From an uncultured Roseobacter sp. (GTDB taxonomy: Bacteria; Pseudomonadota; Alphaproteobacteria; Rhodobacterales; Rhodobacteraceae), in the NCBI RefSeq assembly GCF_947499265.1, contig NZ_CANMNK010000002.1, positions 248,001 to 312,000 of the forward strand: a stretch of DNA of 64,000 bases, given 5' to 3'. Positions 16,235-63,506 of the stretch are shown piece after piece. Every line of letters starts with the position of its first letter. The stretch's first letter is position 1. A program made the position numbers and the translations under genes. The notes under the pieces were generated by a model. The model was given only the letters and a program-made list of their open reading frames with translations. It had not been told where the DNA came from and made no database searches.

Positions 16235-17500
16235 TTAGCCGACCTTGCTGCGCAACAGTGCTGCGGCTTCATAGCTTTTCACAAAGGGCCGGGCGGCGCG
16301 CAGCGGCCCGCGATGACCCTTGGCAATCTCAGGGAAGATGTCGACCAATTCGTCATAGCTGGCCTGATCCGTCTGCAAAATATGATCTCCGGCGAAGAAG
16401 CTTTCCAGTTGTGCGCCCTGAGAGAAGACGATCTCATGTCGGTCGAACATCATGTGATAATAGGTAACGGTCTCGCAAGGCGCTGCAAAAACCTGATCTC
16501 CGTCGCACAAATGCTTGGCGGCGCAGAGGACCTCGGGCGCCTGAAACATCAACTCACATTTCCAACCCGATAAAAGGACGCGGTGCTGCGGCGAAAGGCT
16601 GATCTTCTGCGCATTTCCGATGCTGCCGGGCATGAATGTAATGGGCGCGAGATGGCCTTTGCCGACCACTGCCCGCCTGCCGATCCAGCGGATGGGGCGC
16701 GGCCCGTGATCCAGCGTCTCAACCAGATCCCCAACGCTCATGTCTTCCACCGCGACGTCCCCCTGTGGCGTGGCAAGCGGGGTGCCTTCGGTGAAACAGG
16801 CAACCGTCACATTCGTGATGTTAAGGTAGGTAAAACTATTGCCGTTCGGCAGATTTACGGTTCCGCCTGTGGCGGAAAACGGATTAACGGTGGAGCCCTG
16901 CGGTACAATCAGGCTGTCATCGCCGGTGCCCCCCTGCACGAACCCGGTATTCAGGCCCGCGAAAATCGTGTCGTCGCCGCTGCCGCCTTCGAGGTTGCCG
17001 CCGCCGTCCTCCGCAAAAAGCGTATCATCGCCGCTGCCCCCGCGCAGGATGTTGTTGTTGCCGCCACCGCCGCGCAGGATGTCGTCGCCGCGCCCGCCGT
17101 CCATGTTGTTGTTGCCACTGCCGCCCTGCAGCACATCATCACCGCGCCCGCCGCGTATGGTACCGCCGAGGGTGCCGTCGTCCGTGAAGGTATCGTCGCC
17201 CCCGCCACCGCGATACCCGCGCGCGTTCAATCCAACAGATCCGCTGACGTCGTTGTCGGCGTCGTTTCCGCGGAACTCGACGAATTCGCTGAAAGACCCG
17301 CCTGCCAGGTCGGTATCGGTATAGGTGGTGGTGACGCCGCTGTTGGTGTCGGTGAAGGTGATCGAATTGCCCGTCAGCGTGATCTGGAACCGGTCGCTGA
17401 GGCTGCGGGCGTCGATGGTGCTGTCGGGGCCGATGTCCAGTGACGCCCAAAAGGACGCATCCGTGATATCCGAATTCGTCAATCTGATGAAAACTGGCAT
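16235..17500 (-). CDS. RTX-repeat protein with C-terminal Hint (autoprocessing) domain
   Basis: A 421-residue protein without a signal peptide. Residues 1-95 are a short beta-rich head, and about 95-195 hold GGxGDDxL and GGGGNN-type RTX repeats. From C235 begins a Hint_2-type domain: CFTEGTPLATPQGDVAVEDMS (split across the N-terminal block), WIGRR, and the LSPQHRVLL block. Hint domains cleave the peptide bond before the first cysteine in inteins and hedgehog proteins. The family is common in roseobacters, usually with type I secretion signals, but its substrate role is unknown. The start at 17500 begins at MPVFIRL, a sensible family start; an upstream ATG at 17539 adds 13 residues. It converges on the helicase gene, with 4 bases between stops. 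Confidence 0.82.
   Translation of the reverse strand: MPVFIRLTNSDITDASFWASLDIGPDSTIDARSLSDRFQITLTGNSITFTDTNSGVTTTYTDTDLAGGSFSEFVEFRGNDADNDVSGSVGLNARGYRGGGGDDTFTDDGTLGGTIRGGRGDDVLQGGSGNNNMDGGRGDDILRGGGGNNNILRGGSGDDTLFAEDGGGNLEGGSGDDTIFAGLNTGFVQGGTGDDSLIVPQGSTVNPFSATGGTVNLPNGNSFTYLNITNVTVACFTEGTPLATPQGDVAVEDMSVGDLVETLDHGPRPIRWIGRRAVVGKGHLAPITFMPGSIGNAQKISLSPQHRVLLSGWKCELMFQAPEVLCAAKHLCDGDQVFAAPCETVTYYHMMFDRHEIVFSQGAQLESFFAGDHILQTDQASYDELVDIFPEIAKGHRGPLRAARPFVKSYEAAALLRSKVG
16918..17214 (-). repeat. RTX-type glycine/aspartate repeats in the Hint protein
   Basis: Tandem codons for GGRGDD, GGSGNN and related hexamers and nonamers. These are shorter and more asparagine-rich than those of the large RTX protein at 2647. 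Confidence 0.75.
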
Positions 17501-17690
17501 GTCGCACCAACCCGTTTTTCGCGCCACATCCCCAGGCATCTGCCCGGATGATTTGCGGAATTATCCTCACACCCCTCACACAATCCTATCAGGAACAGGG
17601 GTTAAGTCACTCAGATCGCGACAATTTGAGCAGTTTTCAGCCCAAGGCGGCACCGCACTCTGTGGCGCCGACCGAGGGGACGATGGGGGT

Positions 17691-17733
17691 TTTAAGAAAG
17701 AAAAGGCGGCGCCCGGGAGGAGGGCGCCGCCTT
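17691..17733 (-). terminator. Rho-independent terminator of the DUF1127/sRNA transcript
   Basis: The GC-rich stem of hairpin A is followed on the minus strand by TTTTCTTTCTT. This is a strong intrinsic-terminator shape placed exactly at the end of the CCTCCTCCC array. Confidence 0.75.
17703..17733 (-). ncRNA. CcsR/cuckoo-type hairpin A with CCTCCTCCC loop, also terminator
   Basis: Perfect 12-bp inverted repeat (17703-17714 with 17722-17733) enclosing a 7-base loop. On the minus strand the loop and closing bases read CCCTCCTCCCGGG. It is the last hairpin of the array when transcribed from the DUF1127 gene. It is followed by a T-rich run, so it can also end transcription. Confidence 0.7.
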
Positions 17734-17740
17734 CTTTGTC

Positions 17741-17778
17741 CGCTTCGGAGATCAGGGAGGAGGATTGTCCCCGAAGCG
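17741..17778 (-). ncRNA. CcsR/cuckoo-type hairpin B with CCTCCTCCC loop
   Basis: Stem CGCTTCGG (17741-17748) with CCGAAGCG (17771-17778). The 22-base loop carries CCTCCTCCC on the minus strand (complement of 17755-17764). Confidence 0.68.
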
Positions 17779-17813
17779 TATGACACCAAGCCGGTTGGCT
17801 TGAAGATTAGGGA

Positions 17814-17846
17814 CAGCGGCATCCGGGAGGAGGATGAATGCCGCTG
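17814..17846 (-). ncRNA. CcsR/cuckoo-type hairpin C with CCTCCTCCC loop
   Basis: A 9-bp perfect stem (17814-17822 with 17838-17846) with a 15-base loop containing the motif (complement of 17825-17834). It is closely related to hairpin E: the loop is identical and the stem differs in ways that keep pairing. Confidence 0.7.
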
Positions 17847-17854
17847 CCAAGTTA

Positions 17855-17887
17855 CAGACATCCCAGGGAGGAGGAGAGGAATGCCTG
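17855..17887 (-). ncRNA. CcsR/cuckoo-type hairpin D with CCTCCTCCC loop
   Basis: A 7-bp stem including one G-U pair (17855-17861 with 17881-17887). The loop carries CTCCTCCTCCC on the minus strand (complement of 17866-17876). An outer GTTAC/GTAAC pairing (17851-17855, 17893-17897) could compete with or extend it. It is related to hairpin F. Confidence 0.65.
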
Positions 17888-17957
17888 ATCTGGTAACCTG
17901 CCCGCGGCGACGCTGTGTCGAAGAGGGCCGGCGCGCATCTGAGCGCTTTTGTTCATG

Positions 17958-17992
17958 GCGGCGGCATCCGGGAGGAGGATGAATGCCGCCGC
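17958..17992 (-). ncRNA. CcsR/cuckoo-type hairpin E with CCTCCTCCC loop
   Basis: A 10-bp perfect stem (17958-17967 with 17983-17992). The loop is identical to that of hairpin C and the motif is the complement of 17970-17979. It lies 145 bases from the corresponding motif of C. Confidence 0.7.
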
Positions 17993-17999
17993 TGTGTTA

Positions 18000-18030
18000 C
18001 AGATGTCCAAAGGGAGGATAGGAGCATCTG
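18000..18030 (-). ncRNA. Degenerate CcsR/cuckoo-type hairpin F
   Basis: A 6-bp stem CAGATG/CATCTG (18000-18005, 18025-18030). The minus-strand loop reads CTATCCTCCC, so only part of the CCTCCTCCC core is kept. It is the first hairpin after the DUF1127 stop codon and the degenerate partner of hairpin D. Confidence 0.55.
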
Positions 18031-18043
18031 ATCCGGTTCAGGC

Positions 18044-18280
18044 TTAGACGCCTGTTTGTTTCTGAGCTGTTTCCCAGGCCAGGCCGCGCAGCATCGAGCG
18101 GGACAGGCCGAGGTCGGCCAGTTCGCGATCGCCCAGTTCCGCCAATTCGGCATATGTCTGGCTATAGATGCGGTACCGTGCGTAGCGTGCGGCTGCCGAG
18201 TGCAGCAGGTTTGCGGTTGCGGCCAGGATCCGTTCGATCACACTGGCAGAAGCTGTGTTTGTATGTGTGTAATAGGCCAT
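18044..18280 (-). CDS. Small DUF1127 protein (CcaF1-like)
   Basis: 78 residues, basic. An alanine-rich helix is followed by the DUF1127 core with YAELAELGDRELADLGLSRS. In Rhodobacter sphaeroides the DUF1127 protein CcaF1 (RSP_6037) is an RNA-binding protein encoded directly upstream of the CcsR1-4 small RNAs, and it affects sRNA maturation and RNA turnover under stress. The same arrangement is seen here: hairpins with CCTCCTCCC loops start 14 bases after the stop codon. The start at 18280 has GAGG 8 bases upstream and matches the usual family length; a frame to 18388 exists but lacks a ribosome site. Function in this organism is inferred from that synteny. Confidence 0.85.
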   Translation of the reverse strand: MAYYTHTNTASASVIERILAATANLLHSAAARYARYRIYSQTYAELAELGDRELADLGLSRSMLRGLAWETAQKQTGV

Positions 18281-18323
18281 TGTTTTCGCCTCGAGTTTCG
18301 TTCGTGTTCGTTCTTGTGTCCTA

Positions 18324-18351
18324 TATTTAGGAATATGCTGCGGGTGCACAA
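18324..18351 (-). promoter_or_regulatory. Possible promoter of the DUF1127/sRNA operon
   Basis: On the minus strand TTGTGC is followed after 16 bases by TAAATA, which would place the RNA start about 35-40 bases before the start codon. The Rhodobacter counterpart is driven by the stress sigma factors RpoHI/RpoHII. The sequence alone does not decide which sigma factor acts here, and another TTGAAA lies just upstream. Confidence 0.3.
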
Positions 18352-18498
18352 TGCCTAGATTTTCAATGCTGCTATGCAGCAAATGCATGGGCGACCTAGC
18401 GTAAATTTATGCGTATCGCTATAGGGTTAAGCAGTTTGAACGCTTACATTATGTTAGCGGCAACAGGCGCTTAAGAACGCAGCGCTAATGAGGAGAAA

Positions 18499-19578
18499 AT
18501 GAGCATGTCTGTAACGAAAGCCGAAATCGAAGCGGCTCTGAGCCGTGTTGCGCTGCCAGACGGCAAAAGCCTCCTTGAGCATGATTTGATTCGTGCCTTG
18601 ACCATCGACGGCGGCGCCGTGCGCTTTGTGATCGAGGCGCCGAGCCCGGAGGTTGCGCGCCAGATGGCCCCGCTGCGGGATGCTGCAGAGAAGGTCGTTG
18701 CAGAGCTGCCCGGCGTCGATACCGCCTCCGTTGCGCTGACCGCCCACGGTCCGGCGGAAAAGAAGTCGCCGCCCCCCAGCCTCAAGATCGGTGGGCATCC
18801 AAAACCGCAGGCAGGGCCGACGAAACCCAGCGGTGTCAAACGCATTCTGGCCATCGGCTCGGGCAAGGGCGGGGTGGGCAAATCCACCGTTTCGTCAAAC
18901 CTGGCCGTGGCGCTGGCGCGGGCGGGTCGTAAGGTCGGGCTGCTGGATGCCGATATATATGGTCCCAGCCAGCCGCGGATGATGGGGGTGAACAAGCGCC
19001 CGGCCTCGCCGGATGGCAAGACCATCATTCCGTTACACGCGCATGGCGTCACACTCATGTCCATCGGCTTCATGCTCGAAGAGGGGAAGGCCGTGGTCTG
19101 GCGTGGCCCGATGCTGATGGGCGCGTTGCAGCAGATGCTGGGGCAGGTGGAATGGGGAGAGCTCGACGTTTTGCTCGTCGATCTGCCGCCTGGTACCGGG
19201 GATGTGCAGCTGACACTATGTACCAAGAGCGAGCTGACCGGCGCCATCGTCGTGAGCACCCCGCAGGATGTGGCCCTTATAGATGCGCGCAAGGCGCTTG
19301 ATATGTTCGACACGTTGAAAACGCCGGTGTTGGGGCTGATCGAGAACATGTCGATGTTTGTCTGCCCCGACTGTGGGTCCGAACATCAGATATTTGGGCA
19401 GGGCGGCGTGGCCGCCGAGGCTGAGAAACTTGGCGTGCCCCTGCTGGGGGCGCTGCCGATTGATCTGGAAACGCGGTTGGCGGGCGACCGAGGTACCCCC
19501 ATCGCCGTGGGTGATGGCGCGATGGCGCAGGCCTATGCGCAGATCGCGCAGGGCCTGATCAAAGGCGGGATGGCGTAA
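18499..19578 (+). CDS. apbC: Mrp/NBP35-family Fe-S cluster carrier ATPase
   Basis: A 359-residue protein with an N-terminal FeS-assembly (MIP18-like) domain (about 5-80), a variable linker, and a ParA/MinD-type ATPase with the deviant P-loop GSGKGGVGKST at about 120-130. It also has LLDADIYGPSQPRM and the cluster-binding pair CPDC near residue 290. Such proteins deliver iron-sulfur clusters to apo-enzymes in the cytoplasm. AGGAG precedes ATG 18499 by 5 bases. It is divergent from the DUF1127 gene across a 218-base region. Confidence 0.93.
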   Translation: MSMSVTKAEIEAALSRVALPDGKSLLEHDLIRALTIDGGAVRFVIEAPSPEVARQMAPLRDAAEKVVAELPGVDTASVALTAHGPAEKKSPPPSLKIGGHPKPQAGPTKPSGVKRILAIGSGKGGVGKSTVSSNLAVALARAGRKVGLLDADIYGPSQPRMMGVNKRPASPDGKTIIPLHAHGVTLMSIGFMLEEGKAVVWRGPMLMGALQQMLGQVEWGELDVLLVDLPPGTGDVQLTLCTKSELTGAIVVSTPQDVALIDARKALDMFDTLKTPVLGLIENMSMFVCPDCGSEHQIFGQGGVAAEAEKLGVPLLGALPIDLETRLAGDRGTPIAVGDGAMAQAYAQIAQGLIKGGMA

Positions 19579-44165: not shown

Positions 44166-45815
44166 ATGCTGCGCGGGCTCGATATCTCCGACATGCTCAT
44201 CATCGACCGGTTGGAACTCAGCTTCCAGCCGGGGTTGAATGTGCTGACGGGCGAGACCGGCGCGGGCAAATCCATCTTGTTGGACTCTTTGGGGTTTGTG
44301 CTCGGCTGGCGCGGTCGCGCGGACCTTGTACGCCAGGGCGCGGCGCAGGGCGAGGTCACCGCGTGGTTTGATCTGGTCGAGGGGCATCCGGCCCATGCCA
44401 TTCTGAGCGAGGCGGGGCTGCCGGGGGGGGATGAGTTGATCCTGCGCCGCATCAACACGGTTGATGGCCGGAAAACCGCCTGGATCAACGACCGGCGGTG
44501 TTCCGGAGAGGTGCTGCGGCGGCTGTCGGAAACGCTGGTGGAACTGCATGGCCAACATGATGACCGCGGGCTGCTTAACCCGCGCGGACACCGGCTGATC
44601 CTGGATGACTTCGCCGGGCTGGACAAAGCCAAGGCAAAGTGCCGCGCCGCTTGGACCGAAAAAGGCAAGGCCGCCAAGGCATTGGCCGCGGCGGAGGCGG
44701 CAATGGCGATGATCCGGGAGGAGGAGGACTTCCTGCGCCACGCGGTTGCCGAACTGGATGCGCTGAGCCCGGAACCCGGCGAAGAGGCCACATTGGATAC
44801 GCAGCGCCGGGCGATGCAAAACGCCGAGAAAATCCGCAGCGATGTGGTGCGTGCGCATGAAATACTGAGCGGGCAGGGCGCCGAAGCGGCGCTCAGTGAC
44901 GCGCTGCGCTGGCTCGATGGCGCAGCTGAACAGGCGGAGGGGGCGCTCGAAGCGCCCATGGCCGCGCTGTCACGGGCGCTTGTCGAGCTGGATGATGCGA
45001 CGGCGGGCATTTCCGCGGCGATCGAGGGGTTGTCGTTCAACCCCATAGAGTTGGAAGATACCGAAGAACGCCTCTTTGCCATCCGCGCCCTGGCGCGCAA
45101 ACATGAGGTGCTGGCAGACGATCTTGCCGCTTTTGCCGATACCCTGCGCGGCAAATTGGCGGCCCTCGACGCCGGGGATGCGGATCTAGCGCAATTGGGC
45201 CGGGATCTGGCGGCGGCAGAAGCCGCCTATGACGCCGAGGCGGCACACTTGACCAGCGCACGCCAAAAAGCAGCCAAAGCACTGGACGAGGCTGTCACCG
45301 CAGAACTCGCGCCGCTCAAGATGGAGCGCGCGGTTTTTGAGACGCAAATCACCGCGGATGCACCCGGCCCGGAAGGCGCCGATGCCGTGGCCTTCACCGT
45401 GGCGACAAACCCCGGCGCGCCCTCGGGACCTCTGAACAAGATCGCCTCCGGTGGCGAACTGAGCAGATTTTTACTGGCGCTGAAGGTTTGTTTGACCAAG
45501 GGGCAAAGCGGGCTGACCATGATCTTTGATGAAATCGACCGCGGCGTAGGCGGCGCGACCGCAGATGCGGTGGGGCGCCGCTTGGCGACGCTGGCCAGTG
45601 ACGGGCAGGTTCTGGTGGTGACGCATTCGCCGCAGGTGGCCGCCCTGGGCGCGCATCACTGGCGCGTGGAAAAACGCGTGGCCGCCGGCATGACGACCTC
45701 CACCGTGACGCCCCTGCCGACACCGGAGCGGGTGGATGAGATCGCGCGCATGCTCTCGGGGGACACGATTACAGAAGAGGCGCGGGGTGCTGCGCGCGCG
45801 CTTCTGGCCGGGTAG
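44166..45815 (+). CDS. recN: DNA repair protein RecN
   Basis: An SMC-like ATPase in recombinational repair of double-strand breaks. 549 residues: Walker A GETGAGKS at 29-36, two coiled-coil arms (about 155-215 and 285-370), and the ABC signature region KIASGGELSRFLLALK. Walker B follows with LTMIFDEIDRGVGG, then VVTHSPQVAALG. It begins 26 bases after bamD. Confidence 0.96.
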   Translation: MLRGLDISDMLIIDRLELSFQPGLNVLTGETGAGKSILLDSLGFVLGWRGRADLVRQGAAQGEVTAWFDLVEGHPAHAILSEAGLPGGDELILRRINTVDGRKTAWINDRRCSGEVLRRLSETLVELHGQHDDRGLLNPRGHRLILDDFAGLDKAKAKCRAAWTEKGKAAKALAAAEAAMAMIREEEDFLRHAVAELDALSPEPGEEATLDTQRRAMQNAEKIRSDVVRAHEILSGQGAEAALSDALRWLDGAAEQAEGALEAPMAALSRALVELDDATAGISAAIEGLSFNPIELEDTEERLFAIRALARKHEVLADDLAAFADTLRGKLAALDAGDADLAQLGRDLAAAEAAYDAEAAHLTSARQKAAKALDEAVTAELAPLKMERAVFETQITADAPGPEGADAVAFTVATNPGAPSGPLNKIASGGELSRFLLALKVCLTKGQSGLTMIFDEIDRGVGGATADAVGRRLATLASDGQVLVVTHSPQVAALGAHHWRVEKRVAAGMTTSTVTPLPTPERVDEIARMLSGDTITEEARGAARALLAG

Positions 45816-63341: not shown

Positions 63342-63506
63342 ATGCGGCGCAAAGGCGATTTGCCGACAAAGACCTGTGCCACCTGTCAGCGCCCCTTCGC
63401 ATGGCGGAAGAAATGGGCGAAAACCTGGGAGGAGGTGCGCTATTGTTCGGATAGATGCCGACGCGAGCGTCGCTCGAATGCCTCAACAGAGGCGACAAAC
63501 CAGTGA
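63342..63506 (+). CDS. DUF2256 domain-containing protein (zinc-ribbon-like)
   Basis: 54 residues matching the DUF2256 pattern throughout: [19 protein letters not shown], then [14 protein letters not shown]. The two CxxC pairs suggest a bound zinc. Function unknown; in many bacteria DUF2256 genes neighbour DASH-type photolyase/cryptochrome genes, but none is visible here. Confidence 0.85.

Follow-up and report, generated by a model that had tools for sequence, protein, structure and literature searches.

An ordinary-sized ccaF1-CcsR-type hairpin RNA array in an uncultured Roseobacter sp., with a probable PhaR-type operator

We analyzed a 64,000-nucleotide stretch of DNA from an uncultured Roseobacter sp. 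(the window), the minus strand of which carries a DUF1127 gene followed by an array of hairpins with a shared loop motif. The locus as a whole is, in our assessment with good confidence, best explained as a ccaF1-CcsR-type (CIN1, cuckoo RNA) operon giving loop RNAs that lower translation. The array is genuine, conserved, and of ordinary size, a further copy of a described system. A single transcript would start just 3′ of a conserved two-site operator and run through the DUF1127 gene, three two-hairpin units, and a terminator formed by the last hairpin (Table 1). By analogy with Rhodobacter sphaeroides, this transcript is probably cut into small RNAs, the loops of which, presenting CCUCCUCCC, could base-pair with Shine-Dalgarno sites rich in purines and thereby reduce the translation of a group of mRNAs; the DUF1127 protein probably binds these RNAs and modulates them. 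Reports on R. sphaeroides (PMC10253847, PMC8307010, and PMC8625941) are the source from which we infer that the operon is transcribed, that RNase E cuts the RNA, and what the DUF1127 protein does.

Six hairpins lie 3′ of the DUF1127 gene, spanning 330 bases of the minus strand (18030-17701), and the first stem starts at the 14th base after the stop codon. A preliminary description had claimed a minus-strand DUF1127 gene with six hairpins in about 330 bases, five exact loops and a reduced one, and a final hairpin shaped like a terminator, all of which held up on analysis. The 78-residue protein is a PF06568 member, the motif CCTCCTCCC is present exactly in five loops (minus-strand starts 17715, 17755, 17825, 17866, and 17970) and as TATCCTCCC in the first, and the last hairpin (17735-17701) has 14 pairs, a loop of 7, and a T-rich tail. 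Four terminator-like sites were found in 17600-18600, compared to a shuffled mean of 1.1. Every motif copy falls within a stem of 9 to 13 pairs; when hairpin 6 folds freely, the outer C residues of its motif are drawn into the stem. The 354-nt stretch folds with a z score of −8.63, and none of 100 shuffles was as stable. The exact motif occurs seven times in the 64-kb window (100 shuffles: mean, 0.52; maximum, 3), and the two copies outside the array lie at 44716-44724 and 63427-63435 (minus strand). Beyond what had been described, we found two motif-less hairpins between units and a conserved promoter element at 18336-18384.

Table 1. Features of the DUF1127-hairpin array locus (window coordinates)
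Feature	Position	Strand	Description
Site A	18367-18381	minus	TGCTGCATAGCAGCA; PhaR-type palindrome, 12/12 letters of TGCTGC-N3-GCAGCA
Site B	18336-18351	minus	TTGTGCACCCGCAGCA; weaker, 10/12 letters, four-base spacer; overlaps likely −35 region
Candidate −10 region	18320-18335	minus	TATTCCTAAATATAGG
DUF1127 gene, counterpart of ccaF1	18044-18280	minus	78 aa; open reading frame and PF06568 match (E 5.9e-13)
Hairpin 1 (unit 1, first)	18000-18030	minus	Reduced loop motif TATCCTCCC at 18012-18020
Hairpin 2 (unit 1, second)	17958-17992	minus	Loop ATCCTCCTCCC; partial RF02791 match
Motif-less hairpin, spacer of units 1 and 2 (weak)	17933-17946	minus	From folding; spacer failed separator criterion
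Hairpin 3 (unit 2, first)	17855-17887	minus	Exact loop motif; within RF02791 match
Hairpin 4 (unit 2, second)	17812-17848	minus	Exact loop motif
Motif-less hairpin, spacer of units 2 and 3	17786-17803	minus	From folding; spacer passed separator criterion
Hairpin 5 (unit 3, first)	17741-17778	minus	Exact loop motif
Hairpin 6 (unit 3, second)	17701-17735	minus	Exact loop motif; intrinsic-terminator-like end

Kinship with the CcsR and cuckoo RNAs, also proposed earlier, is supported by covariance models, at scores below gathering thresholds. The CcsR1 model (RF02791) matches the array three times (E 9.5e-9 at 17808-17897, 6.9e-6, and 1.1e-5; best score, 41.2 bits versus a cutoff of 65.3), and the ar14 model (RF02344) matches it twice (E 4.9e-7 and 0.014; 44.5 bits versus 58.8). 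These matches come from a permissive Rfam scan that also returned ar7 (E 0.00089; 28.4 bits versus 60) and unrelated families, all below cutoff; at the gathering threshold, Rfam returned only a tRNA in the whole window. The CcsR1 model describes a two-hairpin RNA. Across the 122 loci compared here, the motif-to-motif distance alternates between medians of 41 and 67 nt. Of the 115 related arrays with at least two hairpins, 82 have an even number. Units 1 and 2 of the window align over 65 of 82 columns. Based on the two-hairpin model, the alternating spacing, the even counts, and the alignment of units 1 and 2, we conclude that the array consists of three two-hairpin units. Spacers of at least 22 nt after a second hairpin contained a further hairpin in 117 of 215 cases, where 50.7 were expected.

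The preliminary description had made its reading depend in part on stems conserved with covariation in related genomes, and these were found. We aligned the array with seven related arrays (L009 to L014 and L035), giving eight sequences in which the six stems comprise 69 pairs and 89.3% of the cells are paired. Two-sided changes were seen in 22 of the 69 pairs (shuffled mean, 9.9, with 0 of 500 shuffles reaching as many; 2 to 6 when partners were slid). As in cuckoo/CIN1 RNAs, then, the stems vary in sequence and stay stems. Changes of this kind affect 5 of the 9 pairs of helix 1 (77.9% of cells paired), three pairs of hairpin 4, and 8 of the 13 pairs of helix 5 (74.2% of cells paired); helix 2 had none among the eight aligned arrays. 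Loops are changed in some relatives, for example in the last hairpins of L009 and L035. The covariation contradicts a reading of the array as chance or nonfunctional repeat expansion, which we regard as extremely improbable even though some arrays (such as L062) contain near-identical tandem units. Family-wide presence also speaks against it, as does strand specificity: hairpins numbered zero on the reverse strands of the 122 regions and six in 122 shuffles, which preserved only single-base composition, as did those used for the weight matrix and the phasin and array palindrome scores below.

The 122 rows of the comparison were the window, 53 loci recovered by a protein similarity search as encoding relatives of the DUF1127 protein, and 68 loci around RF02791 matches in 63 genomes, these 68 being chosen among the matches listed; two of the rows (L018 and L089) are apparently one locus. 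RF02791 matched at E ≤ 0.001 in 99 of 120 family genomes, including the source genome of the window, and exceeded its cutoff in 7 of the 120. One of 14 control genomes, Thermus composti, matched, below cutoff. Our strict caller requires TCCTCC with at most two mismatches, so its counts are lower bounds (looser rules give up to 16). By this measure, the 121 related loci have 0 to 15 hairpins (median, 6), with more than six in 50, six in 16, and fewer in 55. Arrays of 1 to 15 hairpins were present at 119 of the 121, the extremes being 0 at L045 and L083 and 15 at L030 and L037, both from Limimaricola. With a looser motif count, motifs lie downstream of the DUF1127 gene in 52 of the 53 loci found by protein similarity, L045 being the exception.

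The array is not expanded relative to Rhodobacter, as had been suggested, since its six hairpins make three CcsR-like units and R. sphaeroides has, according to publications, four RNAs; six hairpins is also the median of the related loci. Nor is the reduced first motif peculiar to the window. In arrays of three or more hairpins, the motif was exact in 68 of 96 first, 452 of 483 middle, and 84 of 96 last hairpins, rates that are biased upwards by what the strict caller demands. T-rich tails were seen after 62 of 116 last hairpins, compared to 24 of 599 hairpins at other positions. Layouts differ at several loci. The fourteen motifs at L062 (genome G051) include several near-identical units with a period of about 114 nt, which suggests recent tandem amplification. 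Two DUF1127-plus-array modules with 8 and 2 motifs (L041 and L081) lie about 1 kb apart on what is apparently one Tropicimonas contig (G007:C6), and L033 and L043, with motifs 528 to 577 nt downstream of the gene, may have the same arrangement. Six loci (L077, L078, L087, L096, L109, and L115) are lone two-hairpin units with neither the promoter element nor a DUF1127 gene just upstream.

In the window, a longer DUF1127 frame from 18388 was not favored, as it would overlap the operator. The same genome has three more DUF1127 genes (G000:C4:210445, C2:593673, and C4:109118), and none of the genome-wide places listed for exact CCTCCTCCC is near any of them. Divergent from the operon, and sharing its intergenic region, is a gene for an Mrp/NUBPL-type ATPase (18499-19578, plus strand; PF10609); such a gene lies upstream of the array at 94 of the 122 loci. 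Downstream of the array, a minus-strand gene (16235-17539) encodes a Hint_2 domain and RTX calcium-binding repeats.

The array appears to be an independent RNA gene. Among the 68 loci found with RF02791, our script placed a DUF1127 gene just upstream in 51 (52 with L064, which was read by eye), with 13 to 119 nt between its stop codon and the first motif. Eight of the 16 gene-less loci (L069, L072, L073, L074, L082, L086, L097, and L120) nevertheless have both the promoter element and an array, and so does L174, which was fetched later. The ATPase gene is also upstream at gene-less L072, L073, L074, L083, L102, and L120, placing these six at the same position. In one genome (G048), the parts are split: one locus (L172) has the element and the DUF1127 gene but lacks any motif over the following 1.4 kb, and another (L097) has the element and the array without the gene. 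The order in genome G055 (L177) is element, two motifs, DUF1127 gene, and one more motif. We draw the apparent independence of the array from the eight gene-less loci with the element and from the split genome.

These observations bear on whether the hairpins are a mere 3′ untranslated region of the DUF1127 mRNA, a stabilizer or a series of terminators protecting the message and not acting as RNA in trans. Exonucleases could be stopped by strong stems, and the window array does follow its gene closely and end in a terminator-like hairpin, all of which fits such a role. Arrays that sit behind the promoter element but lack an adjacent upstream DUF1127 gene, as at the eight loci, do not fit it, nor does the separation of gene and array in G048, and we consider this explanation quite improbable. 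A possible absence of the protein from genomes with gene-less arrays was rejected; DUF1127 genes occur elsewhere in all 11 such genomes checked, as they do in the window's own genome. Nature has thus provided, in the split loci and those lacking DUF1127, experiments in which the roles of RNA and protein are separable, and the copy-number range of the arrays makes dosage testable.

Upstream of the gene, a composite element, ATTTGCTGCATAGCAGCATTG-N12-TTGTGCACCCGCAGCA, contains site A and, about 30 bp further downstream, site B. A weight matrix for the element, trained on 49 of the loci later scored, placed 111 of the 122 loci above all 241 null values. Exact matches to the composite pattern were found at 47 places in 46 of the 120 family genomes, and its reversed control never occurred. 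The window's site A, TGCTGCATAGCAGCA, fits the operator CTGCNNNGCAG published for R. sphaeroides PhaR (PMC12542648), and a phaR gene is present in the source genome (PF07879, E 3.2e-28). Judging from these sequence features, the promoter is probably held down by PhaR, a PHB-sensing repressor, in addition to being served by stress sigma factors. A TGCTGC-N3/4-GCAGCA palindrome matching in at least 10 of 12 letters was found in 115 of the 122 regions upstream of arrays, compared to 59 of 1,220 shuffles, and two such sites 25 to 36 nt apart in 74 of the 122 regions and none of the 1,220 shuffles, although the high-scoring site may differ from the composite one. As a positive control, we used phasin promoters from 20 of the 62 listed phaR neighborhoods and from the source genome, of which L219 had no phasin match and L217 was too short. 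All 19 promoters scored contain the palindrome, with 11 letters in 7 and 12 in 12, a level of 11 that 380 shuffles reached once; the source genome's own phaP promoter has 11 of 12.

Several observations would fit the element being the site of another regulator, or the sigma-factor promoter itself, rather than a PhaR operator. The ccaF1 promoter of R. sphaeroides has been described as RpoHI/RpoHII dependent (PMC10253847). The likely −10, which follows TTGTGCA, reads CCCCATGT in some relatives and CCTAAATA in the window, an assignment made by reading the sequence; a sigma-70 promoter scan of 17600-18600 gave no match. Only 50 of 97 aligned elements have the strict CTGCN3GCAG palindrome, and Shimia-type loci have a degenerate site A. 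Co-occurrence of phaR is no help in deciding, the gene being present in 62 of 63 genomes. Weighed against the palindromes and paired sites at the arrays and the 11- to 12-letter palindromes in every phasin promoter scored, a non-PhaR element seems to us possible but on balance doubtful. PhaR and an RpoH-type promoter could also act together, with site B overlapping the likely −35 region.

Genome-wide occurrence of TGCNGCNNNGCAGCA was not taken as proof of PhaR binding: it has 23 matches in the source genome (5 places being counted on both strands) versus 3 when reversed, and 14 of its 18 places lie in open frames according to a crude caller that also flagged the phaP site and the one in the window. 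One of its intergenic places (L155) precedes a gene that resembles, by eye, a CoA-ester lyase gene. A second match to site B near phaC (G000:C5:44380) was rejected as support for PhaR because it lies inside the phaC frame. No link between PhaR and DUF1127 or CcsR was found in the literature searched, which excluded the original CcaF1, CcsR, and cuckoo reports, so that the link may be in print elsewhere; the one paper found to name both PhaR and DUF1127 (PMC9230146) does so in unrelated places.

Taken across the Rhodobacteraceae, these sequence patterns point to a broader proposal to which we give about an even chance. The array and the DUF1127 gene would belong to the PhaR regulon, so that, when PHB granules are present, PhaR would leave the two-site operator and the translation brake would be released. 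Operator and array would form the core, the DUF1127 gene being a separable passenger that may be lost or moved with an operator of its own, and array length would change in two-hairpin steps and set the dose. CcsR RNAs are known as stress RNAs controlled by RpoHI/RpoHII. If true, a PHB sensor acting on the same promoter would tie a multitarget translation brake to carbon storage, in parallel with mmgR in rhizobia.

The loop sequence CCUCCUCCC contains the anti-Shine-Dalgarno core CCUCC of the 16S rRNA tail twice. With any ATG counted as a start, GGAGGAG occurs 4 to 10 nt before ATG at 89 places in the source genome, compared to 19 for the reversed sequence, and 4 of the 89 lie on the opposite strand of the array. 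Ribosome sites thus seem to offer many seven-base targets. For the exact nine-base motif, the same genome shows no enrichment (30 places, the array accounting for 5, versus 29 when read backwards), and hence no large group of targets matching all nine bases can be seen. The excess of GGAGGAG without a nine-base excess leads us to regard the array as most likely a source of several redundant anti-Shine-Dalgarno RNAs that have numerous moderate targets instead of a small perfect set.

A different use of the same RNAs would be as a sponge that titrates an RNA-binding protein (the DUF1127 protein or Hfq) without pairing to mRNA. CcaF1 is an RNA-binding protein with an effect on CcsR maturation, and an interaction between CcsR RNAs and Hfq has been reported (PMC10253847 and PMC8307010). 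Many copies fit titration, as does the presence of DUF1127 genes elsewhere in the 11 genomes whose arrays lack a linked gene. Mutating the three loop motifs of NfeR1, however, abolished silencing of a reporter (PMC10746234), and we regard a sponge without mRNA pairing as unlikely compared to loops acting on ribosome sites.

Among known systems, the cuckoo RNA family has a consensus reported to be 2 to 4 hairpins (Reinkensmeier and Giegerich, in 2015), whereas arrays related to that of the window reach 15 by strict count. The window shares with cuckoo/CIN1 loci same-strand CCUCCUCCC hairpins, a DUF1127 gene directly upstream, and a terminator at the 3′ end. DUF1127 proteins together with CcsR-like RNAs make up the published CIN1 locus (PMC10253847). 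The closest described counterpart is ccaF1-CcsR1-4 of R. sphaeroides (RF02791), which likewise combines a DUF1127 gene, same-strand two-hairpin RNAs, CCUCCUCCC loops, and a terminal terminator. It differs in having four CcsR RNAs (PMC10253847), where the window has three units, a reduced first motif, and Rfam matches below cutoff. Its RS0680a RNA has two stem loops with the motif in each (PMC3927594), and expression of the CcsR RNAs, their cutting by RNase E, and the target flhR have been reported (PMC10253847 and PMC8307010).

Two RNAs of Sinorhizobium meliloti offer further parallels. NfeR1 (alpha-r14, RF02344) has identical anti-Shine-Dalgarno loops that act redundantly and have been shown to mask ribosome sites; the same loop motif silences ntrB, and mutated loops do not (PMC10746234). 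Unlike the window array, with its RF02344 match below cutoff, NfeR1 comprises three hairpins and is served by a sigma-70 promoter of its own (PMC10746234). The other, mmgR (alpha-r8), is also an anti-Shine-Dalgarno RNA, and its promoter is bound by PhaR at a site, CAATTGTGCACCGCAGCATTA, that is very like site B of the window (PMC12542648), although mmgR belongs to another RNA family, is a single 77-nt RNA (PMC7143759), and comes from another bacterial order.
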